Assembly (NCBI GenBank): GCA_021234155.1
Contig: JAJEKV010000003.1
Coordinates: forward strand, 22,409,569 to 22,473,568
Direction: 5' to 3'
Length of the DNA stretch: 64,000 nt
Source: Isoetes taiwanensis
Lineage: Eukaryota; Streptophyta; Lycopodiopsida; Isoetales; Isoetaceae
Positions within the stretch are counted from its first letter, which is position 1. Every line of letters starts with the position of its first letter. The notes below the pieces were generated by a model. The model saw only the letters and a list, made by a program, of their open reading frames with translations, was not told where the DNA came from and did not search any database. Below, one piece after another: positions 7,362-55,897 of the stretch. The translations under genes and the position numbers were made by a program.

Positions 7362-10300
7362 TAGATTAAGTTCCAATTAACGGTCAGTTAAATATACAAG
7401 AACGATTTGCATAGGAAATAGAAAACTGAAAAATGTCATAGCACGAATTGAATCCCAATCTCCAATGTGGCAATAAGGAAAACCGAGCTACAGTGACATA
7501 AACTTTTTTACAAGTTGCAGAAAATTTATGCTAACCCTGATTATCAAGCTAAAATATTTACGGGCAAACTGTAACTTTTACTAAGCATCTGAAAAACCCG
7601 AGATCTGGATCCGCCCACCGACCCGTTTGAGATTAAAGAGTACAGACGAGGGATGAGCAAGATCCAATTCATTCCATGCTTTAAAAAAATTCCAATCAAT
7701 GATCCAACACAAAAATGAAAGCCTGAATTACACTCCTACCCCGTTAAGAATACTTAAATGTTGCAGAAGAGCGATAAGCACACAAAACCCAACAATCTAA
7801 GGCCCTTTTTCCACGGTACTCTTATCTCTAAAAGTCACATACCCTCCCAGGATACCATCTCTACTCATTAATCAACGAATGCATAGGAAATCGAGGTCAT
7901 GGGGGGTAGCTTGTTATTACAAGACTTCTTTGAACTCTTCTATTTTAATTGAACAAGGCAGACAAAAATGATCTCTACATGTGGATATGGGTGCAGAATC
8001 ACTGTGGAAGTACCATATTTATTGCAGCTTGCTATTTCCCACATATTGATTCATACTTTACCCAGACATGGATAAGACAAGATCCATATGCCAATCCATA
8101 TGATGACATTCAACAACATAGGCTATAGGGACATGTCATGCTGATTAGAGATTTTTATGCTTGTACTGTTGTGACCCAGTTGACAAGGTTCAGCCTTGAG
8201 ACAAAGTTTGCATTGTAGCTTGAAATTGATGAGGCCATATGACAATGCACATCAGCTGGTAGAGATTATGTGCATGTTGCCAGTTACAGATCATTGAAAA
8301 TGAAAGCCACACTGTTAAGATGTCCTGCTTTTGAGATGGTAAAAAATCGTTATTTGACTTTAACATTCCATTCCACACTCCCACAACTTCTCAGGGCCCC
8401 ATCTGTGCATGACTTGAAATTATACATACTTGAGGTTCTAGATGAGTGTCTTCAATTATGAGCCCTCAATAGTCATCATGATCTACTTATATTTTTTTCA
8501 TGCTTGTTTAATATCATCATTACTACAAAGATTTTTCCCTTGAAAATCTTTCGAGGCAGGGGTTTCTTAATTCTAGTAGGAATTGTTGTACTAGAGCATT
8601 GTATGGGTCCCATCGCATTTTGGTCGCCTATTCTATTCTATTCTATCACATGGTTTGGGAGGCAGTTGCTCTAGATGTGTAATACTTTTGAATTGATTAT
8701 TTATAATAGGCCATCCTTTGCCTCATACACTTGTTGATAGAAGAATCGACGTGCCCGTTGACGTGGAGGATTTGGTGTTGTAGACTATGTCCTTGTAGTA
8801 GAACATGTATCTTCATTTGGTCACACATATGCAAGTGGGAATAAATAGCAGGGATGAGGAGGTGGATTTTGACCATCAATCCCTCTTTTGATAGTGATTG
8901 GGAACCAGTACGAATGCAATGTCAGAGGAGCTCTCTAATATTTTATAGCTTCCCAGAGCAACAATATGAAAAACTTGTTCCTGTGCTATTGGCATTGCTA
9001 GGAAGACGCTTTGGAAGGAGACGACTTGGAAGGACTTTAACTGCCTCCTACTTTCCTAATGCATAATTTGATGATCAACATTAGGAGCTTACATGGCAAC
9101 TTAGATTGGTGCTTGATCCTATTCTTTGTATGCAAGTTATGAAGCAATAGAAGCCTTTTCTTAAAGAAAAGAAGGCTTATGCATGGCATAACATCAATGG
9201 GACACGTTCTTCCTTCTGGCGCACAACCTTAAGACATTTTGAAGAAGAGTCTTTTATAAACCCATGCAAGCTCTGGGCAATATCTCTGTAAGTGGATGCA
9301 GTACTTAACACAACTCTACGATCCTCAAGAATGCCACCTAATGTACCAAGGCAGTCATGACATGAGTCATAATACAATGTTATTGAATATATGGGGTCAA
9401 GTGCAACTTTTATCCTATATTATAAAGTTTTACCGTAAGTGTTGGACCACGCCATAAAAATTTTAACGGCCCAGATTTGATCCTAATAGTTTAGACGGTT
9501 CAGAAGAGACTTTTGCCCTTATTCTCGCTCTAGCGATTTAGGGCACGCATAAGATATGTCGGAATTATGGCTCCCAGCGGGATGTTATAGTGTAGGATTT
9601 TCGGAGGAAAGAATTACTTCATGCCCGTTTTTGACTTGCAATTAGGTATTCTGAAGTAGAAGCCCTCAAAACCTCTATTCATGGCATGTGGGCTATCTAG
9701 CTTCAAGCTCAAGAAAATCGGCTCCTTTTTAATGTTTTTGTGCAATGGTGGGCAACAGAGTTGTTGTTGGAGGTTGTCTTTCGCCTCTGCACAGAGTTTG
9801 GCAAAAAACGGCAAGAAAATGCTTGGCCATAATGATTTACTTCAAATGAATGTACAACTCTGCAAACACAGATTTGTTTTTTTTATATTTAGGCTACACG
9901 ACATTACATAGCTACAAAGAATGATCAGAATGTTCTGTACGAAGCCAAAATCACTATTTAAGAGAGGCCTGGCTATGGTGGATGCCATAGTTTCATTATT
10001 GGTTACTTTGACCGCACTCAATACTCTCTCTGGAAGTAAAGTACGTGTGGGTAATTAAATTTCTATCTGTTGTTTTTAGTAGTATGAGTAATGGTGTATT
10101 ACCTCTTCAATTTGTAATTTCCAAGATGTCAACAATAAAAGTTCAACTTCAGAGTAAATACATCGCTCTTTTCTCATTCTTCTTAAAATCTTACAAGTTT
10201 CAATCTAATACTCAGCAACACCGGACACTATTACTATGTTTGGACATTTTTGTTGTAATAAAAGGTTACTGCACACTTTTCTCATTGCAGTCAAAACATT

Positions 10301-30628: not shown

Positions 30629-32214
30629 TGTGACGTTCCACGTATTTATATGCCACGTGACACGTCACTATGAATAATTAATGGTGCATTAATTATTCAT
30701 AAGCTAAGGGTAGCTGTGTTAATCCTTAATTATTAAGGTGGAAACCTAACACTAAACCTGAATTCGAATTTAGGGCTTAACCTAATCTTAAAAGGGGTTA
30801 AAATATTAAATTAGTTAATATTAACCAACCTAGAGTTGACACCTGACCCAAATCGATTCGGCAAGGCAGGCTTGCCAATTTGGGACACCAAAATTGGGGC
30901 TTCCACCCCAATTTGCCCCAATTCGAATTGGGAGAGGGATTGGTGGAGGAGGAGCTGTTGTTCAACCCTGCCCCAGCCAGAAGGATGGAGAACTAGAGAG
31001 ATAATAGATCTAGCTATGGTTCTGGTTAGTACGTAGATAGCTTGGATTCCTAGATGGTCATAGGATTAACCATTCTACGCTTAGAAGATAGCTAGGATTA
31101 ACCCTTGTATGAATAGATGTATGGTTAATCTCTATTTTATGTTCTATTCGAAGCTATGGATGGATGGATGTATAAGGATAGCTCTCTTTCCGTTCCTCCT
31201 GTATTGCATGGGTAAAAAGGGGGTAGAGACCTAAAGGCCATCTAGAAGTAGAGATTTTCCTAGTTAGAACCCTTAAAACCCAGTAAATGCGGCCTGTGCA
31301 TAAGAGCCCACCTAGCTGTGGATGCTATGTTGTGATTCAATACTAGACAACAGGTATGATGGTGAAACGGGAATGGGGTCTTGCCTAGCCTGGCTACAGG
31401 ACTCCTATAGTGTGTTAGATTTATAGTCGGTCACTGAATATGGGCCGGGCATGGGTCTGACACCTCCTGGGTAGCAGGGCAGGTCCCGGAAGGGCAGTCT
31501 CGACTCGATGGGTGCACCGAGGCGGCCCATGGATTTTGGGGGGTTTAAGTTGGGTACGGATGCGTGGCTGCCGAGGTGGCGCGTGTTCTCTAGCACACCC
31601 ATGGATCCGCCATGCCCGGGGAGGGGACGCCTCCCTGGCCTGCCTCATCGGACCGGGGAGATGTAATCCGGAGTAGTCTCATAGGATGATTCATGGAATT
31701 GCATCTCCAGAAGGCTACAATCACGCCATAGCATGTTTCAGCCTATCTGCAGAGTGTGCATAGGAGGGTCGGATGGAGTGGACTACCCTAGCCATTGTTC
31801 TATGCCAGCCAATGCCATTGTATACTTCTTTCTGCTGTTATCCGGAGGCCTTGATTGTCAGTCGACCCCCATGAGTCTGAGCCAGGGATAAAGCCCTTAT
31901 TTATGGTGCAATTCCTTTGTTATGTTGGTATTATGTTGTTAGTTGTATTGATGATGATGGGCCACCCTTCATGGTGGTATATTATTTATTAGTATTGTTG
32001 CTAGGTTCTAACATGCATGTACGCTTCCGCTATATAGGATTCCCATAGAAAGCGTGGGACAGATGACACCTCCGTGTCCTTCACCCGAACACTTGGCCAT
32101 CACAAGTGGTCCGAGTCAGACGGAGGGCCTTTCTGTGGTGATGGAGTCGCCATGGGAGGGGAATTTCCCATATTTATATGATGGGAGCATCGTATGGATT
32201 TAGGGAACGTCACA
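30629..32214 (+). repeat. 5' LTR (1,586 bp)
   Basis: The left long terminal repeat begins TGTGACGTTCC and ends GGAACGTCACA, so the short terminal inverted repeat is perfect. It aligns throughout with the split 3' LTR, with scattered substitutions and small indels (for example in 31030-31110 against 54714-54790). Promoter and poly(A) signals must lie inside, but I could not single them out. Confidence 0.92.
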
Positions 32215-46282: not shown

Positions 46283-46913
46283 TCAAGTCGCCATATATGG
46301 ATTTGATCCAGAATCCCTGTAAGCAACACCTGAAGCAGATGAAGGAATGTAATCTGGTGAAACATAACAAGTCTCATCCTCATCTATGACATTGTGAGCG
46401 GCAACATTAACATCATGGTCAACCACATCCTCATCACATTCATCTTGCTCTTCCACGTCATCCTCCCAATCCTGTGGTTCTGGAATGCTTTCCTTCTTTG
46501 CAAAGCCAATGTAAGGCTCTCCTTGCACCTGTCTATGACACTGAATCAACTTTAAGTTAGCATTCACAAACACCAAATCAGACATCCTTGATGGAAGAAG
46601 CCTTATTCCTTTTTTGCTTGCCACATGGTTAAAGACACTAAAAAGCCTCTCAAGTGGAGAAGAGGATTCCCCTTGGCTAAGAATGTGAACTGCCATGGCT
46701 TGCAATTCTGGTGTCTCTCCTCCAAACTCCTCCCAGCAAACTTGAAGCGAGCTGCTTGTGCATCCATTGTTCCAAACCTCCCTCCCTTCCGCCTATCGAT
46801 TCCATATTATTCTCTTATGATGTGAATTTTATCCACATCTCCAATCATCATTTCAAGCATCCTGCCATTGCTTGTTTCCTTGGAACTTGGGATCCAAGTA
46901 AAATGCTGCAGAA
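46283..46913 (-). pseudogene. hAT transposase C-terminal part (dimerisation domain)
   Basis: Minus-strand coding from AAFYLDPKFQGNKQWQDA (about 46910-46858), through a frame change and a stop after HIIRE, into GGRFGTMDAQAARFKFAGRS, then the hAT dimerisation domain LQAMAVHILSQGESSSPLER (46708-46640) and LPSRMSDLVFVNANLKL. An acidic tail ends at 46283. These are diagnostic of plant hAT transposases (Dimer_Tnp_hAT). At least one frameshift and a stop show it is inactive. It continues the piece at 54130-54429. Confidence 0.88.
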
Positions 46914-46924
46914 AATTGAAATAA

Positions 46925-47560
46925 CATTATGCTCCCACCTTAAGTGAGAGTCTCCAGTAGCATTTTTTGAGATTATGCTCCCACCTTAAGTAAGAATCTC
47001 TAGTTGCACTTTTTTATTCCTTATGCAGTGTAATGTATTTCTAGAATGATGGAGTGAATGGTGCATTGCATTTGCTCCTCTGTACACATAATTTTGTGCT
47101 CCCAATATTGAGACTACGAATAAGCTAGGTTGTGCAGACATGACAAGCTATTAATGTTGCATGCAATGGGCAAAGACCATGCATTGCTCTTAATGCATGC
47201 AATAGGCAATAGTTTACATGATTCTTGTATTGCAATATTGAGATTACAGATAATGAATATAATGACAGTTGTTTGCAATGGAAATAATTTGTTTGTCTTG
47301 ATGTTATTATGCTTTTTAGTAATTAATATTTAGGCCCATACAGTTTATTTATGTTTGCTTTAGTTAGGGCCCGAAGGGCCCAATTTTTTTTTTAATATAA
47401 CAATCAACACACAACTACCATTAATGTTATTAACACAAACCATTGCATTTAACACATTTAAATTAAAATCCCCCTTAAACCCCCTTTGGTTTGGGTGCAT
47501 ATAGCAACACCCAAGGTGAACAACAACAAAGAGTGCATGAACCAAAAATATAAATGAAAA
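46925..47560. other. hAT interior / insertion flank without a gene
   Basis: AT-rich. A tandem copy of TTATGCTCCCACCTTAAGT (46927 and 46973) is the only clear structure. Either hAT intron or the 3' part of the inserted retrotransposon. Confidence 0.4.
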
Positions 47561-47782
47561 GAGGCGCCCCCCCACCTAGCAGGGCGGGAAGGGAGGGAAG
47601 CAACGAGAATGGAAGAAGTGCTGCTATGAGAAGACGCCGATAGCCGGTCCCGAATGGGGAGTGGCCTTATATAATGGCTCGTCCATCCCTAGAATGGCGA
47701 TCCGAAGGCTCGGATCGATGCGATTCTGGGAAGGGACTCGCAAGAGACAACAAAACCGGCCGACTACCACAGAACTTCCTAA

Positions 47783-48700
47783 CTATAAGCCCAACCACCG
47801 CGAAACCTCTAAGTGTTGAGTCGGGTCACGAAGCACGTAGCGAGAGTGAGAAGAAGAGGAGCGCCAACGATCGTGAGCGCGAGCAACATCATGTGGAACC
47901 CCCCGAGCTGCAGCTGCCGAGGCCCCGCCGCGACGAGCAGAATGTGTACCATATTGGGATGGATCCAAGCCGATAGCGAGAAGACAATCCCTCCACCATA
48001 AGCAGGCAGTCGGATAGGATAAGGGGCACAGAGAGGAGGGAGAGGTGCGAAAAAGAGGGCCGCCTGACGGAGGATCGAGGAGATGATAAGAACTGGTGGA
48101 AATCATACGCTGAAGAATAGTGATGGTGCAGGCGAGTGACGGCAAACGAGCTAAAGAAATCGTATGACCGCAAGCAAGTTGGTCTCGTTTAGAATGGCGG
48201 ATAAGAATGTCAACATGAGACAACGAAAAAGAGAGATCACGCCAGTTGAGTGCGAGGGCCTCGGAGATGCGCAAAAAAGCGGCAAAGAAAAGCATGATGA
48301 GAGCAGCGCGGGCCAAAGAGGGGAATGGAGCCGTGGGAGGCGCAAAGTGGAGAACAATAGAGCGAACATGCTGAGGCAGGAGAGGAAGAAAGGTGCGAGG
48401 GGGGCGGGCCCGACGAGAGGTGGACTGACGAGCCAATGACGGTAAAGGTAAAACTGTGGGGGAGGGAAGGTTGAAAATTTGATGAAAAAAGGATATGGCT
48501 GCCGAGGTCGAAGTAATGGACGAGGGCGACATATGAGAATGATGAAGAGAGCGCGAAAAAAGCAGAAACGACAAAGGGGGAAGCAGGGAGATAGGAAACA
48601 ACATGTAGACGGCACCAAACAACAAAGCGGCAGAACATAGCTATGTAAGCTGTGAGAGTAGATGGGGCACGTGAGGAAAACACCAAAGGTAAAGTCGAGA
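47783..48700 (-). pseudogene. Tyrosine recombinase (YR) of the DIRS/Ngaro-type element
   Basis: Phage-integrase-type recombinase that would insert the circular cDNA. The N-terminal core-binding part starts near RAPSTLTAYIAMFCRFVVWC (about 48680) in one frame and shifts near 48540-48560 into the long frame ending at 47783. Catalytic landmarks: Arg in FFAAFLRISEALALNW, a Lys-containing RHSKRDQ, the HxxR box THSARRGGASAAAARG, the AHDRW position, and the nucleophile Tyr in SRYVLRDP. The Arg, Lys, HxxR, His/Trp and Tyr set is complete. The C terminus (LEVSRWLGL) and TAA/TGA end look natural. Only the one N-terminal frameshift separates it from an intact gene. Confidence 0.88.
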
Positions 48701-48929
48701 GGAATAAGGGGACCTCCTAGGGAGCAAGTAAGCGAGAGGTAGCTGCCACAAAACAACATAAAAAACATGTTAAATTTAAAAATTGACAACGAAAAACATA
48801 AAGAGCTACATGACGCTGACACCCTGCAAAGGGTGTCGATATATGGGGCAATAAAGCCAATGAAAGCAGAGGGCCAATGAAGCACCACCAACATAATACG
48901 AGCATGACACACAGCCGCATGGTGTAAAA

Positions 48930-50674
48930 CGCGGGGAACTAAGGCAGGCGGTGCGGATATGCGAACTGAGTATTATAAACTGGGAGCTTGTGGTTAAGGG
49001 GAGAGGCAAAACGATCAACATGATGCGGGCCCCACAAGGAATCAATATAACGAAAACACCACGGGGCGAGGGCAAACTCATCTGATTGAGGAAGGCGAGA
49101 AAGATAATCGGCCCATTCATTTTGGGAGCGAGGAATCCAAACAGGCTCCAAGGAGATGGAAAAATGAAAACAAAAGAGGAAAATCTCTAGGGTGAGAAAA
49201 TGAATATCGGGCGAGGAGGAACCCCCTTTTTGGAGAATGGTGGCAACATTAAAATTATCCCCACGAACAGTGACCAGGCGAGCATGAAGAAAAAGCAAGG
49301 CCGAGCGCAAAACTTGATAGAAGGCTAAGAGTTCGCGCCAAATGGAAGAATGAGAAAGTTCAGACTCAGAAAAAAGGCCAACAAAGTCCAAGCGGTTTTG
49401 CCCCAGGAGAAGGAGCCACCCCTCCCCCTCCCCCCCAACCAAATGAACTAGCATCAAACCCAAGGACGGCGGAAGGACGTCGGGGTGGGGAAATAGGGCG
49501 AAAACTCAAAGAAGAGGCGACGGATTCCCATAAAACCACTTCCATGCGGGCTAAAGAGGATAAAGAAATAGGGGCATCCCAGTGAAAAGGTTGAATAAGG
49601 CGATAAGAAAAGAATGTTAAAGCGGAGACAAGGGAACCGAAAACGATGCGAAGGGGCTGTAGAAAGCCCAAGAATTTGGCGAGGTAACGGGATGTAAGAT
49701 GTGAAGAGGAAAGAAGCGAAGAGGAGACTTGAAAAAACTTGGCTAATTTCTTGGAAGAGAGGCAAATAACCATAGCAGAAGCATCAAGGAGAAACCCAAG
49801 GAAAATGGTGTGGTGTGACAAATGCAAACGACATTTAGGCCAAGCAATGAGAAGACCAGCAGCTTACAAATCAGAAATGATGCGATGCTGAAGAGAACTA
49901 GGGTCATGCTGAGTGTTAAAAAGGAAATCATCCATATAAGGGGTGCAACGAATACCGACCGCTCGCCAATGGCGGACTAACGAACGCATCAATTTGGTAA
50001 AGACAAAGGGAGCAGAGGCCAGGCCAAAAGACAGCATAGTAAAGACAAAAAATTGCTGGTCAAACTGAAAACCCAAAAAAGTGTGATGAGGAGGCCAGAT
50101 GGGAACATGATGGTAACCGGATTTCAGATCCAAAGTAAAGAGGAAATCCTGGGGTTGAAGGGCAGCGACTCATGATGAAAAGAAGGCACAGACAAAAAGG
50201 AGTTAAGATAGCGTAAGTCCAGAATCAAACAGAACTTGTGGTCTCCCTTAGGCACAACGCCGAGGGGCGAGCAGAAAAAGGACAAGATGGGACTTGCATA
50301 ACAGCACCAGAACATAAAAGGTCTTGAATGGCAGAACGGGCAAAAGGAATATGCGACGACAGAGAGGAAAAGTTTGGGCGAAGAAATGGTTGAGGTGGAG
50401 GTCCCTGAGCCCAAGGAAGAGCATAACTATGTTGGATCCAAGACAAGACAAGAGGATTGGCAGAAATAGAGTGCCAAAAGGGTAATGACGCGGGGAGACG
50501 CCCGCGCACCGATAAGGTAGCATAGTGGGAATCGAGAGCCACAGGGTCAAAAGGGAGATGGGGTAAAGGGGAGGTAAAAACTCGGCAATCTGCAAAAAAA
50601 GACCCGTCAGAAAAACAATATCCTTTATTAATGATCAAAAGGAAATACAACATATAGTGAAGAACAGACAACAA
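48930..50674 (-). pseudogene. Reverse transcriptase-RNase H of the DIRS/Ngaro-type element
   Basis: RT motifs in order: GRLPASLPFWHSI and AIQDLLCSGAVMQV (about 50500-50290), then after a frame change CSPLGVVPKGDHKFCLILDL with RYLN (50280-50210), DLKSGYHHVPI (50133), FGLASAPFVFTKLM, and the catalytic YMDD in RCTPYMDDFLFN (about 49945). A stop at 49864 is followed by the thumb (IFLGFLLDASAMVICL). RNase H residues: Asp in VLGFDASSFGWG, Glu in SIWRELLAFYQVL, Asp in VTVRGDNFNVATIL and Asp in PRSQNEWADYLSRL, i.e. a complete D-E-D-D set. The tail GPHHVDRFASPLNHKLPVYN is characteristic of this retrotransposon group. Breaks near 50280, 49865 and 49375 disable it. Confidence 0.88.
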
Positions 50675-50684
50675 CTAAACTGGC

Positions 50685-51623
50685 TCAAGAAGACCAAGAC
50701 GGGGGTAATGTAGGTGGAGGAAGAGCCGGATGATGTGTCTGCGGGGGAAAAGCCATCAATAGAGTAGGGTTGAGAGGAACTGAGTGAAAAAACGGTGGGG
50801 AAAAGGGAGGAACTGCATTATGGAAGAACTGACGACGAAAACAATTTCCGGCAGTGTGCCGAAAACGACCACAAATAGTACAGCGAAGGGCGGAGGGGTT
50901 GGCGGAGGAAGAAGCAGAAGAAGAAAAAGTGGCAGACGAAGGGTAAGGAGAAGTGCGAGCACGGGGTAGGCGCTTCTCTTGGGCGAATTTCTTAGCTTGG
51001 TGCAGACGTTTGGATTCGTCCGAAGAAAAATTCAAACTAGGGGACTCACTAAATTGCAAGGCGACGTCGTATCCGTGTTGGTCAGCAATAAGGACAAATT
51101 TCATTTCTTGGTCCGCCAAATGCTTACCTTCTTCCGCCATCTGCAGCACATCGTCTGGAATGGCGACCCCCAACATAGCGAGATGTCCATGAATCCATCG
51201 AAACTGGGTGTCCATAGCCGAAGCAAACTCGTAGTAATGCCGCATGGAGTCGCGCTCAAAAGAAGGGGTAGGCTGAGCGGCCCATTCTCGAATATCCTGT
51301 TGAAGGTGCTCAAGTTGGGTCTGGACTGACAACTGCTGGGTCATTGATGTCTGGAGTGCCTGAAGTGTGGCCCGTTGCTGCTGAAGCTCATGCAATAATT
51401 GTGTATAATCAGGAGAAACTGGAGCAGAAGGAAGGGGTACAGCAGAGGCGGGAGATGCGTGCGGCAGAGAAGAGAAAAGAGGAGCCATCTGAGTTGGAGA
51501 AGAAGGGGCGGTGGCACCGGCGAGAGAAGAGAAAGGGGCAGCAAAGGCTGAAGGAGTCCAAAAAGAAAAAATCGACGAAGCGGAAGCGGGAGAGGTGGGG
51601 GGAGAAAGTGAACTGGGGTCCAA
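50685..51623 (-). CDS. Gag-like protein of the DIRS/Ngaro-type element
   Basis: Long open frame that continues upstream without ATG to about 51733, so the true start is unclear. The N-terminal third is Ser/Pro/Ala-rich; a Gln-rich helix follows (LLHELQQQRATLQALQ), then a globular part with FVLIADQHGYDVALQF, reminiscent of DIRS-order Gag proteins, and the basic segment RLHQAKKFAQEKRLPRAR. One zinc knuckle CTICGRFRHTAGNC (CX2CX4HX4C) would bind nucleic acid. The C-terminal tail is Pro-rich. It lies immediately upstream of the RT frame, with little spacing. Confidence 0.75.
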   Translation of the reverse strand: MDPSSLSPPTSPASASSIFSFWTPSAFAAPFSSLAGATAPSSPTQMAPLFSSLPHASPASAVPLPSAPVSPDYTQLLHELQQQRATLQALQTSMTQQLSVQTQLEHLQQDIREWAAQPTPSFERDSMRHYYEFASAMDTQFRWIHGHLAMLGVAIPDDVLQMAEEGKHLADQEMKFVLIADQHGYDVALQFSESPSLNFSSDESKRLHQAKKFAQEKRLPRARTSPYPSSATFSSSASSSANPSALRCTICGRFRHTAGNCFRRQFFHNAVPPFSPPFFHSVPLNPTLLMAFPPQTHHPALPPPTLPPSWSS

Positions 51624-52039
51624 AGATTCCGGCTCAGGTGAGAGGGAAGCTTCACGTTGACGACGAGAACCAACAGCGCGAGCCGTGGGGGAGAAAGCGA
51701 ACTCGCAGGAGAAGAGTTGGAAGTGTTCGCGATGGACGGCATCAACTCAATGATCTGAAAAAGGAAATACGTTAGAGCACAAAAACAATGGTAAGAAGGG
51801 CGTGCCAGCCACGAGATGGGGAAAGAGGTCACCCCGACAAAAGCAAGTCAAGCCCTCGTGATGACGAGTCCAAGAAGGCATACCGGCGCGCCCCCACGAG
51901 GACGGCAAACAATAAGGCCAATGCAAGAAACCAACAATATAAGCGGTTGAAATCAACTCCAATAAGGAGAATGCGACACGAATGATAGAAGCCAATATCC
52001 AGCTAGGTAGGATCAAGCTATGCAATTGCAGATGATGCA

Positions 52040-52640
52040 TAAACACGAGAAGAAAAACAAACCATGTTAATGCATATAATGCATAAAATGAGGCCTACTT
52101 ATGCAAACCCCTAAGTGGTCAATAATGATGAATAACCCAATAGAAAGGCAATAAGATGCAGAGGAAAAGCCAACCCATGGTAGTGTGTAAGATGCATAAA
52201 CGTTAAAAAGACAAAGTGCAACCTTGCATATGGTTAACAATAAATCACAAAGAGCTATATAGGCGGCAGAATCGGAAACACGACATAGGCAATAACACGA
52301 AAGAGAAAAATGAAACCATGGTAATGCCTAAAAGAGGAAAAACAACGTTCAACTGCTCATATGGATAACAACATTTCAAAAGGAAATTACAACATAGGCA
52401 ACAAGATCGAATTGAACCAAAGCACATGCAACAATACAAAAAAGAAAAATGAAACCCTGATAGTGCATAGTAAGCATAAAACGTTGAAAATAGTTTGATA
52501 CATCGTATTCCAATATATGAAAAATGCAAATTCGAATGATGCCTAACATAAAAAGTCAAAAACAACCATGGGAATGCATATGATTCATAAGATGATGCCA
52601 ACATATAGCAAAACCCACGTGGTCAACCATAACGCAAAAA
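52040..52640 (-). repeat. Imperfect tandem repeats in the leader of the tyrosine-recombinase element
   Basis: About five diverged units of roughly 120-140 bp, each with an AACCATGGNAATGCATA-like word (52065, 52173, 52317, 52453, 52566) followed by CATAA and, often, a TATGGTTAAC or GTGGTCAAC word. They separate the upstream ORF from gag. Confidence 0.65.
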
Positions 52641-52974
52641 ATGCAAAAAACTAACACAGGAAAAGAGAGACATGCCCGAGTCCAGAACCATGAAACATCC
52701 TGTCACAAGACACCTATAAGTGCCTTATACATGATAAACAACAATAATAAGTAGGAACCTTTATAAAAATCAACCCCCTTATAAGAAAAAAAGAAAGGGG
52801 AAGCACATATAGGAACCCGCAATAAAACCATGCTATTTCAGCGTTTATGATCCAGAAACATGAAAAAACATAAACGTGAAAAGCAAAACAATCGCTTTAT
52901 TTCATATTATTCATGAGATGGCGTCGACACTTAGACAATGCCAAGGCACAAAGCAAAAAACGGCCGCCCAGAGG

Positions 52975-53583
52975 TCAGATCAACCCCAAGGAAATTGCCA
53001 GATAAGTGGGAAGAAATTGCGGAGGATACTCAGTCAAGATAAGAAAAAACTCGCGCAACTCAATGGGGCATAAGGACGAAAACCCCCATTGCAGAATGAC
53101 GTCCCCTAAGAATCGAGCACGAGCCGGGTCGACAAGTCTATATGAGCGGAACACCCGACGAACAGCAGGAGAAAAAGACGCGTAAAGGCGAAGCGCCCAG
53201 AAGAACTCCTCAGGCCAGTCAATGTCCGCATGTTCAAGTTGTAAGGCATTGCGAGCAAATGGGTGCAAGGCGTCCAAATGGAATGTGTAAAGATGGTGAG
53301 TCATCATAGCAATTTTTGGAGGTGCAAAAGGAGGAAAAAAACCAACAGGGAAGATCTTGGCGGAGCAAAAGGGGCAAGGGAACGGCATCGGGACCTGTGA
53401 AAGGACCAAAAAAGATATACGGAAATGAAGCAGTAGTCCAAAGACAAACCCTGTGGAAAGGGAGTTGTGGCAGGAAGACTTAAAGAGCAACCAGTAGGGC
53501 ACAGAGGGAAAAGACGAACGGCCACAAAAAACATGCAAGCAGAGTGAATGGAAGCCGAGGGCGCACTGGAGAAAAGCATGCAA
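52975..53583 (-). CDS. Upstream ORF of the tyrosine-recombinase element, unknown function (202 codons)
   Basis: Open frame with the same GC-rich composition as the element. The middle holds a possible C2H2-type zinc site, FPCPFCSAKIF followed by MMTHHLYTFH. The second half is well-folded-looking (EEFFWALRLYASFSPAVRRV, ARARFLGDVILQWG). I do not recognise the family. It lies about 1.3 kb upstream of gag on the same strand; whether it is an extra element protein or a captured host piece cannot be told from one copy. Confidence 0.45.
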   Translation of the reverse strand: MHAFLQCALGFHSLCLHVFCGRSSFPSVPYWLLFKSSCHNSLSTGFVFGLLLHFRISFLVLSQVPMPFPCPFCSAKIFPVGFFPPFAPPKIAMMTHHLYTFHLDALHPFARNALQLEHADIDWPEEFFWALRLYASFSPAVRRVFRSYRLVDPARARFLGDVILQWGFSSLCPIELREFFLILTEYPPQFLPTYLAISLGLI

Positions 53584-54129
53584 CAGAATGAATGGTAGCC
53601 AAGATCAGGCAAAAATAGCGAGCCCAAAGAGGAGGAGCCGAAAATACAGCAGAAGACTGGTGGGAAATGAGAGAAACATACCATAGAGAGAGCAGGGGCC
53701 GTCGGATCTTGTCAGCACAGCAATCAGAAGGAAGGAGGACCCGGCCACAGCACCTGTATGCCAATGGGTGATTGATCTGAAGACACCCTTCAATGAGGTG
53801 CCGAAAAACTCCAGTTCCACCAAGGTGGGAGCGAATCGGGGTGAAGGAGGAAGCAGACCATGGCAACATGGATGAGCAGAGGCTGTGCTAGTGGAAATCG
53901 GAATCGAAAGGAACAGATACCGACAAGGCAAAGGACAAATAGAAGGAGCGAAGGGGGCCCAAGCTGAGGCCCAGCAAGACAAGCTAAAAGCTTGGATAGT
54001 AGAGTAGTGATGGCTAAGAAACGATGCACCCTAGAAATACTATTTAGTATGCACACTCAAATACAACAACAAAATCATAGAAAAACTATATAGAAAAACG
54101 TATAAAAAATCAAAAGGAAACCCTCTGTT

Positions 54130-54429
54130 ATAATGCTAGATATTTGAATTGGAGCATTCTAATCATCCCATCTTTTTGCACACAATTGATTCAATTGCTC
54201 AAACTTCTCCTCATTCTTCTCCAACTTCTTGATGCCCAATCATCCTACGAAGACCTTCATAAACCTTGTCAATGCAAGAAACATTGCTATCAACAAGGCG
54301 TAGCATCAATATAATTGGCTCTACAACTAGAATGTAATGCTCAACATCAGCCCAAAAATCATCATCAAATACTATCTCATAGCAAGCTTTACCTTTAAGA
54401 AACATAAAGAAATATACCTTCTGAAACAT
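54130..54429 (-). pseudogene. hAT transposase central part
   Basis: Minus strand: FDDDFWADVEHYILVVEPII and LMLRLVDSN..IDKVYEGLRRM match the conserved hAT segment before the dimerisation domain. Then, one frame over, NEEKFEQLNQLCAKRWDD is followed by a stop. The BED finger and most upstream sequence are missing between here and the 54696 terminus. The reading continues at 46913 across the retrotransposon insertion. Confidence 0.82.
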
Positions 54430-54696: not shown

Positions 54697-55897
54697 AGCT
54701 ATGGTTCTGGTTAGTACGTAGATAGCTTGGATTCCTAGATAGTCATAGGATTAATCCTTGTATGCTTAGAAGATAGCTAGGATTAACCCTTGTATAAATA
54801 GATGTATGCTTAATCTCTATTTTATGTTCTATTCGAAGCTATGGATGGATGGATGTATAAGGATAGCTTTCTTTCTGTTCCTCCTATGTTGTATGGATAA
54901 AAGGGGGGTAGAGACGTAAAGGCCATCTAGAAGTAGAGATGTTCCTAGTTAGAACCCTTAAAACCCAGTAAATGCGGCCTGTGCACAAGAGTTCACCTGG
55001 CTGTGGATGCTATGTTGTGATTCAGCACTAGACATAGGGTATGACGGTGAAAAGGGGGTGGGGTCTTGCCTAGCCTGGCTACAGGACTCTTATATAGTGT
55101 GCTAGACTTATAGTCGGTCACTGAGTGTGGGCCGGGTATGGGTCTAACACCTCCTGGGTCGCAGGGCAGGTCGCGAAAGGGCGGTCTCGACTCGATGAGT
55201 GCACCGAGGTGGCCCATGGATTTTGGGAGGTTTAAGTAAGGTACGGATGCGGGGCTGCTGAGGTGGCACATGTTCTCTAGCACACCCATGGATCCGCCAT
55301 GCCGGAGGAGGGGACGCCTCCCTGACTTGCCTCATCGTGCCGGGGAGATGTAACCCGGAGTAGTCAATTACGGTGATTCCATGGTGCATCTCTGGAAGGA
55401 TACAATCACGCCATAGCATGTTTCAATCTATCTGCAAAGTGCGCACATGAGGGGCGGATGGAGTGGACTACCCTAGTCATTGTTCTATGCCAGCCAACGC
55501 CATGTTATACTTCTATCTGCTATTATCCGAAGGCCTTGACTGTCAGTCAACCCCCACGAGTCAGGCTCGGGGTAGAGCCCTTATTTATGGTGCATTTCCT
55601 TTGTTATGTTGGTATTTTGTTGTTAGTTGTATTGACAATGATGGGCCACCCTTCGTGGTGGTATATTATTTATTAGTATTATTGCCAGATGCTAACACGT
55701 CTGTACGGTTTCGCTATATAGGATTCCCATAGAAGACGTGGGATAAATGACACCTCCGTGTCTTTTACTTGGACACTTGGCCATCACAAGTGGTCCGAGT
55801 CAGACGGAGGGCCTTTTTGTGGTGATGGTGTCGCAATGGGAGGGGAATTTCCCGGATTTATCGATGGGTGCATCGTATGGATTCGAGAAGCGTCACA
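54697..55897 (+). repeat. 3' LTR, second part (begins with the hAT target-duplication copy)
   Basis: AGCTATGG (54697-54704) followed by GTTCTGGTTAGTACGTAGAT-type sequence that aligns with 31021-32214 of the 5' LTR and ends GCGTCACA at 55897. Confidence 0.92.

Follow-up and report, generated by a model that had tools for sequence, protein, structure and literature searches.

A truncated DIRS-order tyrosine-recombinase retrotransposon, probably PAT-like in structure, in the genome of the quillwort Isoetes taiwanensis

The minus strand of a 64,000-nucleotide stretch of the Isoetes taiwanensis genome (contig JAJEKV010000003.1; hereafter the window) carries what is very probably a dead, doubly truncated retrotransposon of the DIRS order, encoding a tyrosine recombinase (YR) and PAT-like by structure, which belongs to a multi-family and recently mobile quillwort lineage and would have followed the cycle proposed below. 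An earlier note on this DNA had described the element as DIRS/Ngaro-type. Its identity as a DIRS-order YR retrotransposon, multicopy in a vascular plant, held up; the assignment to Ngaro did not, since the relatives carry a methyltransferase-like region.

The copy in the window

Homology to other copies runs on the minus strand from position 54014 to 47500 (W1187 to W7701, where W position p equals window position 55201−p). This corrects the extent of 47560–54130 given in the earlier note; the stretch up to 54130 is another repeat. The copy is an internal fragment, in which the outer ends A1 and B2 are both missing and the internal B1A2 is kept, and it is dead, being truncated at both ends. 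It had also been called lightly damaged, which understates its condition: gag and reverse transcriptase (RT) are spread over several frames, RT has an internal stop, the N-terminus of YR is out of frame, and the methyltransferase region has been deleted twice. The element is CpG-rich, as had been noticed, with an observed/expected ratio of 0.80 versus 0.56 in the remainder of the window.

The copy is nested inside a hAT gene. Uninterrupted hAT paralogs without the insert were found in the genome, and they explain the junctions between hAT and retrotransposon, at which a bad join had been considered. On one flank, repeat X (54010–54144) forms the beginning of a stretch of 181 bp that L030 and L031 have in common; on the other, repeat Y (46907–47502) is the interior of a longer repeat common to L027–L029. 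X and Y were weighed as the two ends of one element that received the window copy, and they are shared with different loci.

Coding domains and relatives

The gag, RT, RNase H and YR that had been reported are all present in the minus-strand translations, RNase H being recognised weakly by Pfam. The gag ORF (50685–51746), whose N-terminal part lies in another frame, contains the CCHC knuckle CTICGRFRHTAGNC at about 50841–50882 and has a codon-position bias of.091/.081/.258. RT occupies broken frames at 49864–50674 (Pfam RVT_1, 4.3e-12), with YMDD at about 49927–49938. The region at 48939–49505 holds RNase H, with its acidic residues, and the first part of a Dam-like methyltransferase region, both assigned with the help of the relatives' alignment; the RNase H match is under the cut-off (RVT_3, 0.039). 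YR lies at 47783–48742 (Phage_integrase, 6.3e-7), its catalytic ORF at 47783–48640, and the residues R-K-HxxR-H/W-Y are readable in the translation. These RNase H and YR residues are the catalytic ones. All 8 sequences of the YR alignment have K, HxxR, H, W and Y unchanged, and the relative L020 lacks the first R.

Corresponding domains were found in the relatives, with RVT_1 at 1.8e-15 (L016) and 7.6e-19 (L019), RT_RNaseH_2 at 3.9e-4 (L019) and 0.2 (L016), both under the curated cut-off, and Phage_integrase at 6.5e-9 (L016) and 4.7e-5 (L019, under the cut-off). Motif inspection identified the CCHC zinc finger of gag in both families; the Pfam scan gave no hit for it. No DDE integrase or endonuclease appeared among the Pfam hits of nine window ORFs and eight relatives' ORFs, in agreement with the earlier note. 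In family 1, the ORF0, gag, RT, RNase H and YR segments all show codon-position bias, and non-coding controls are flat. Together with the 110 matches that its DNA has across this genome, this indicates that the element is not a product of chance.

Searches of the genome gave 122 matches for YR (121/3085 candidates scored) and 102 for RT (100/10171 candidates scored), with many frames open, and the relatives fall into at least two families. Alignment of the copies revealed terminal repeats of the split direct kind. The better-preserved copies measure 7.6–8.6 kb and have the order A1 – ORF0 – gag – RT/RNase H/Dam-like domain – YR – B1A2 – tail – B2, with ORF0 seen in family 1. YR has the same orientation as the other ORFs, the internal repeats lie downstream of it, and the tail separating A2 from B2 is about 730–780 bp long in L006 and L016. 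On the minus strand of the window, the internal repeat B1 (47723–47763) ends in CCCAGAAT and matches B2 of other copies at 91–98%, and A2 (47597–47722) begins with CGCATCGATCC and matches A1 of L006, L007 and L010 at 83–87%.

ORF0 (52975–53388, minus strand, 137 aa) contains a CxxC...H...H motif and a predicted helical part, and is conserved from its ATG in the relatives. It has 152 matches in the genome and substitutions of.111/.070/.276 per codon position, and by sequence comparison it is probably a fourth ORF under selection. Its structure model has a pLDDT of 57.6; a Foldseek comparison of the model with the PDB returned 15 matches at E≤10 and none at E≤0.001.

Methyltransferase region, rival explanations and classification

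The earlier note had seen no methyltransferase and had reasoned from this to Ngaro. In the relatives, however, a Dam-like domain follows RNase H, and the alignment shows that this conserved region is kept in both families. Pfam Dam and phrog_111 match it, weakly, in all seven sequences tested (two of family 1 and five of family 2), with best values on the cut domain of 7.8e-4 for Dam and 3.4e-5 for phrog_111. The Dam score of member 1 is 15.2 bits against a curated cut-off of 28.1, and Dam reaches only 0.29 and 0.20 in whole relative ORFs. A whole-genome Dam search, of a type that may miss weak matches, gave three matches, none over the cut-off and none at a recognised copy. The structure model of the region was uninformative (pLDDT 45). 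Searching the PDB by sequence with this alignment returned two hits, both taken as probable chance matches; the better one (0.0082) is to a WD-repeat protein and spans 22 positions. What the window retains is a remnant at 48820–49050 on the minus strand, in which deletions at two places, about 48952 and 48866, remove 61 + 76 bp relative to L004 and 61 + 74 bp relative to L005 and L006. It is the window copy whose methyltransferase is broken; the family as a whole does not appear to lack one. A true Ngaro element, with split direct repeats and no methyltransferase, is improbable: the deletions and the region conserved in both families speak against it, even if the window copy has no intact methyltransferase and the Dam matches of the relatives are weak. 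Ngaro is defined partly by the lack of a methyltransferase (PMC3266345, PMC4157794), and the relatives have one, which sets them apart from that group.

Very little weight is given to the view that the window copy is typical of an old relic lineage without recent activity. Several other copies, for example L006 and L011, are indeed broken and diverged like the window copy, but A1 and A2 are identical (100%) over 126–160 bp in L016, L017 and L023, which are three of the nine measurable copies, and open frames without stops, judged ORF by ORF, extend to 767 aa for RT and measure 330 aa for YR. Moreover, the joined flanks of L017 match empty sites in two paralogs over 255/255 bp (100%); for L023 the empty sites of three paralogs match over 290 bp at 97–98%. 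Recent insertions of the family, whose possible activity the earlier note had raised, are shown by the identical repeats and the L017 empty site, and the related, partly very recent copies suggest that a YR lineage has been active in a vascular plant. That the element is contaminant DNA or an assembly artefact is scarcely credible. The published assembly was made from non-axenic plants, with contaminant contigs filtered out, but contigs of 8–53 Mb carry 17 of the 20 copies fetched, which argues against contamination, as do the insertions into multicopy sequence for which empty paralogs exist. With the patterns used, no relative of the RT alignment was found in viral contigs or GTDB genomes (27 and 151 pattern stretches, respectively, none confirmed by tblastn).

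By published structural criteria, the DIRS-order elements described here would be classed as PAT-like. Split direct repeats, a methyltransferase, a gag zinc finger and a YR in the same orientation correspond to the description of Pat1-like elements (PMC4157794), and the echinoderm element SpPat1 has the same gag zinc finger, RT-RH-methyltransferase and same-orientation YR (PMC4157794). The Isoetes elements differ from SpPat1 in their vascular plant host and may also differ in an additional selected ORF0, the tail, acceptor-like sites and a B1A2 hairpin. The green-algal PAT elements Kangaroo and Toc3 share the split direct repeats, the methyltransferase and a host of the green lineage; unlike the Isoetes elements, both lack a gag zinc finger, and Kangaroo has an inverted YR and internal repeats between methyltransferase and YR (PMC4157794). 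Neither of these two Kangaroo features is present in the copies compared. Ngaro has the same repeat order A-pol-B-A-B, a YR and no DDE integrase, and differs in the methyltransferase. DIRS1-like elements have the same RT-RH-MT-YR, and their integration at a short crossover sequence, which leaves no target-site duplication (PMC3266345), resembles that at the family-1 site tested. The inverted terminal repeats of DIRS1 and its internal complementary regions were not seen here. Self-comparison of L016, L017, L018, L022 and L023 gave direct terminal pairs, with inverted matches only around the hairpin, and a DIRS1-like structure was rejected. YR elements are liable to misclassification by structure alone (PMC4157794). 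A single damaged copy can also mislead, as in this case, where the copy and not the family has lost the methyltransferase.

A 2011 review reported DIRS1-like elements as undetected in streptophytes, and a survey published in 2022 on the transposable elements of land plants left out the DIRS superfamily as absent. In the literature searched, we found no anatomical description in any land plant, only repeat-table labels and general statements. If a lycophyte harbours a diverse YR lineage that was mobile recently, the distribution reported for land plants would have to be revised, and the question would arise whether PAT-like elements were inherited from green algal ancestors, with losses elsewhere among land plants, or came in by transfer. 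The recent copies whose empty sites are known would offer a plant system for YR-driven retrotransposition.

Proposed cycle and integration site

In the cycle that we propose, full-length RNA would be the genome, and the downstream ORFs would be expressed from spliced RNAs via three acceptor-like sites. Reverse transcription would yield cDNA whose B2 and A1 ends would be joined with the internal B1A2 as template, in a published kind of model for the DIRS order. The joined cDNA would be a circle with a B-A junction (...AGAAT|CCC...), which YR would recombine with a chromosomal (N)AT. The window copy would afterwards have lost its ends and decayed.

The three putative acceptors lie on the minus strand. 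The signal before gag (CTAAC ... TTTTTCAG, 51753–51772, AG at about 51755) has its AG in 12/13 copies, that before RT (TGACG ... TTTTTTTGCAG, 50590–50612) in 11/13, and that before YR (TTAAC ... TTGTGGCAG, 48743–48775) in 14/14 aligned family-1 copies; family 2 has TTYCAG before YR in 4/4 copies shown. A search for a 5′ splice donor site identified none. Family-1 copies are located at (N)AT sites, and target-site duplication, which DIRS-order insertions are expected to lack, is absent at L017, the one family-1 site tested; L023, of family 2, has an apparent duplication of 12 bp, not zero.

Integration may conceivably take place at a folded site, single-stranded or cruciform, as with integron cassettes, although we consider this unlikely: the B-A junction in the circular cDNA would form a hairpin, YR would bind two stem segments, and strand exchange would occur at AAT beside an asymmetric internal loop. 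The integron attC is likewise a recombination site that forms a hairpin, and its asymmetric internal loop lies close to the crossover, a comparison of working only. For attC, a bacterial cassette site, use of the folded single strand is shown; for the Isoetes elements it is suggested only. Here the crossover is off-centre in the double-stranded form, and the B1A2 crossover hairpin varies in sequence among sub-families with a constant fold and place of AAT. The hairpin is strong (z of −4 or lower) in 16 of the 20 copies folded and appears decayed in the window (47678–47734, minus strand), where z is −3.0, versus −6.1 to −9.8 in five relatives.

The window copy and its surroundings

The minus-strand ORFs of the window copy were scanned against Pfam, and the motifs named in the earlier note were seen in the translations. 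Reverse transcriptase (RVT_1, 4.3e-12) and tyrosine recombinase (Phage_integrase, 6.3e-7) were matched, and RNase H gave a weak RVT_3 match (0.039) below the cut-off. Similarity to 12 other copies in the same genome (L004-L015) extends from 54014 to 47500. This stretch holds ORF0 (an extra ORF upstream of gag), gag, reverse transcriptase (RT), RNase H, a broken methyltransferase region, the recombinase (YR) and the repeats B1 and A2. The outer ends are absent, and the copy is broken in gag, RT, the methyltransferase region (61 and 76 bp fewer than L004) and the YR N-terminus.

In both of the hAT paralogs L024 and L025, a single unaligned base lies between the equivalent of window 54144 and that of 46911. 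Because both are continuous there but for that base, window 46912-54143 counts as an insertion with respect to them. The hAT is separated from the retrotransposon by pieces of two further repeats, X (54010-54144) and Y (46907-47502), whose borders to the element are sharp: X stops at 54010-54012 in all three loci compared across the border, and Y starts at 47502 in most matches listed and in all three loci fetched. A dispersed repeat also lies at 54697-55399 and 31012-31714; it has at least 39 further matches, one of them in the window, at 84-90% identity (40 of 7767 candidates scored).

Anatomy, copy number and classification

Twenty-one copies were examined (window, L004-L023). The better ones have the order A1, ORF0 (family 1), gag, RT/RNase H/methyltransferase, YR, B1A2, tail and B2, and measure 7904 bp (L016), 8137 bp (L017), 8331 bp (L006), 7637 bp (L022), 7564 bp (L023) and, from repeat positions, about 8550 bp (L010). 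An A1/A2 pair was measurable in nine of the 21, and L005, besides these nine, has a partial pair; the sequence fetched for L010 and for L019 starts at A1 or within it. The two repeats are identical in L016 (127 bp), L017 (126 bp) and L023 (160 bp), where zero differences set an upper bound on divergence of about 0.02 per site. Identity is 98.8% in L022, 97.8% in L018, 96.9% in L010, 96.2% in L007, 96.0% in L019 and 92.2% in L006. In L012 (C1034:4895900-4899800) with L041, B2 and A1 at the outer ends are each reverse-complemented and correctly face outward, and the core, partly deleted and in the opposite orientation to these ends, stops where B2 is expected to begin. The tail of L019 (family 2) contains a 281-bp near-palindrome (8751-9031; 89%).

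Searches of the whole assembly (1,658,258,908 bases, 1110 contigs), in which the window lies on contig C1034, gave at least 110 matches to the whole-element DNA (33 of 5381 candidates scored), 122 to YR (121 of 3085), 102 to RT (100 of 10171) and 152 to ORF0 (150 of 304), each count being a lower bound. Among the matches listed, amino-acid identity to the query lay between 49% and 100% for YR and between 50% and 100% for RT, and many of the full-length matches were at about 50-56%. L016 shares 55-58% identity with L019-L023 in the RT-RNase H-methyltransferase part. Judged by sequence, the copies fall into two broad families that include sub-families: family 1 comprises the window copy and L004-L018, family 2 comprises L019-L023. 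ORF0 relatives about 50% identical, with an open 139-aa frame (C1026:13841463, C923:2368992, C1096:1400699 and others), are probably a further sub-family. The family-1 terminal B motif, with at most two mismatches, occurs 1703 times in the genome (reversed control, 0), a count that takes in B1, B2 and short derivatives. Part of it are the compact loci L038 (C548), L039 (C919) and L040 (C72), arranged tail-B1A2-tail-B2; in L040 a unit of about 772 bp is present twice in tandem, the two being 96% alike.

Both families share, with slight variation, a conserved region after RNase H, labelled METHYLTRANSFERASE, which reads WGPHHVDRFASP...LFNN.CFPP..L.P.VLHHA...A..TL.V..WPSAPWWPL in the alignment of relatives. 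Cut out and scanned singly, it matched Pfam Dam in seven of seven copies (L016, L018, L019-L023; best 7.8e-4; member 1 at 15.2 bits against a cut-off of 28.1) and the DNA methyltransferase phrog_111 in the same seven (best 3.4e-5). Within whole ORFs the Dam matches were weaker (0.29 and 0.20), and a genome-wide Dam search gave zero matches over the cut-off. In PMC3266345 and PMC4157794, Ngaro is defined by lack of a methyltransferase domain, and PAT by that domain together with split direct repeats. Because PMC4157794 also cautions against classifying YR elements by structure alone, the label PAT is structural only for these elements.

Coding capacity, hairpin and insertion sites

Substitutions were counted by codon position against the window copy, over the longest aligned block per copy. 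The values were.111/.070/.276 for ORF0 (10 copies),.091/.081/.258 for gag (12),.086/.054/.206,.054/.045/.163 and.075/.043/.206 for the RT and RT-RNase H segments (12 each),.100/.057/.214 for YR (12) and, counted from a shifted start,.200/.035/.037 for an RNase H segment (11). In three non-coding controls the positions were about equal (.169/.184/.174, 6 copies;.161/.178/.147, 8;.167/.160/.149, 12). Because of this bias and the flat controls, we read ORF0 as the fourth protein-coding gene of the element. The C-x2-C...H...H motif of ORF0 is suggestive of nucleic-acid binding; the L016 ORF0 had zero Pfam matches at E<=5, and its model zero structural matches at E<=0.001.

Directly upstream of gag, RT and YR lie a branch-like motif, a stretch rich in pyrimidines and an AG. 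In the aligned family-1 copies the AG is kept in 12 of 13 (gag), 11 of 13 (RT) and 14 of 14 (YR), and TTYCAG stands just upstream of the conserved YR start in all four family-2 copies printed, despite differences in spacer length. A donor for these acceptor-like signals was sought and none was found. We infer that the ORFs may be expressed from spliced RNAs, the unspliced RNA being the genome.

Folded as DNA, the B1A2 junction gives z scores against dinucleotide shuffles of -6.8 (L016), -7.7 (L019), -6.1 (L020), -9.8 (L023), -7.0 (L022) and -3.0 (window). Against mononucleotide shuffles, 16 of the 20 copies had z at or below -4, the weaker ones being L004 (-2.2), L011 (-1.0), L012 (-2.8) and the window (-3.9); in the stretch of L021, the 21st copy, that was folded, the hairpin is absent. 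Its inner stem sequence varies between families, and of 11 inner stem pairs three differ between L023 and L019, all three compensated. In family 1, in L020, L022 and L023, and in L019, the 5' arm carries an AAT close to an asymmetric loop. We liken this hairpin to the attC site of integrons, to which it may be comparable. A literature search for hairpin, palindromic or attC-type sites in such elements found no paper on YR retrotransposons among the 12 of 1,685 listed; the words hairpin and palindrom do not occur in PMC6681497 or PMC3266345.

The family-1 right end is ...AAT in all 12 copies printed, and the last bases of the left flank are (N)AT in all six: TAT in L006, AAT in L007, L010, L016 and L017, and GAT in L018. 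Empty-site comparison covered L017, L023 and the hAT. When the flanks of L017 are joined with a single AAT, 255 of 255 bp (100%; query 45-299 of 299) match in each of two empty paralogs, and query 1-45 matches about 280 bp off within the same two loci. For L023 (family 2), three paralogs matched across all 290 bp at 97-98%, and TTGCCAATAATG stands at both ends, in place of the final bases of B2. This duplication could be a repaired heteroduplex; the L023 ends are at odds with a simple zero-duplication rule and are counted against it.

DIRS elements in land plants

DIRS1-like elements were reported in 2011 as undetected in streptophytes, PMC9033089 (2022) is cited for absence of DIRS from land plants, and PMC3537659 (2012) has complete ALOG-type DIRS1 elements as unknown from streptophytes. 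In a table of PMC4157794 the count is 0 for both Arabidopsis lyrata and A. thaliana, and Volvox has elements. An absolute claim of absence is countered by the 361 'DIRS' elements (45 kb) in the Ceratopteris repeat table (PMC6890710), the 8.26% of the Cunninghamia genome reported as DIRS (PMC13415678), a statement that DIRS occur in plants (PMC6696364), their display among plant transposable elements (PMC11630846) and the DIRS category of PlantRep (PMC9035001); the available parts of these five contain no element anatomy. Among the open-access titles listed, none described a DIRS-type element in a land plant (lycophyte, fern, bryophyte, Isoetes and Selaginella included), and the term DIRS does not occur in the main text of the Isoetes taiwanensis genome paper (PMC8566536). 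The assembly searched here has two rbcL matches, one on contig C840 (35 kb) and a full-length open one at C1052:5415903-5416829 within a contig of 11 Mb; the latter is probably plastid DNA within the nuclear genome.
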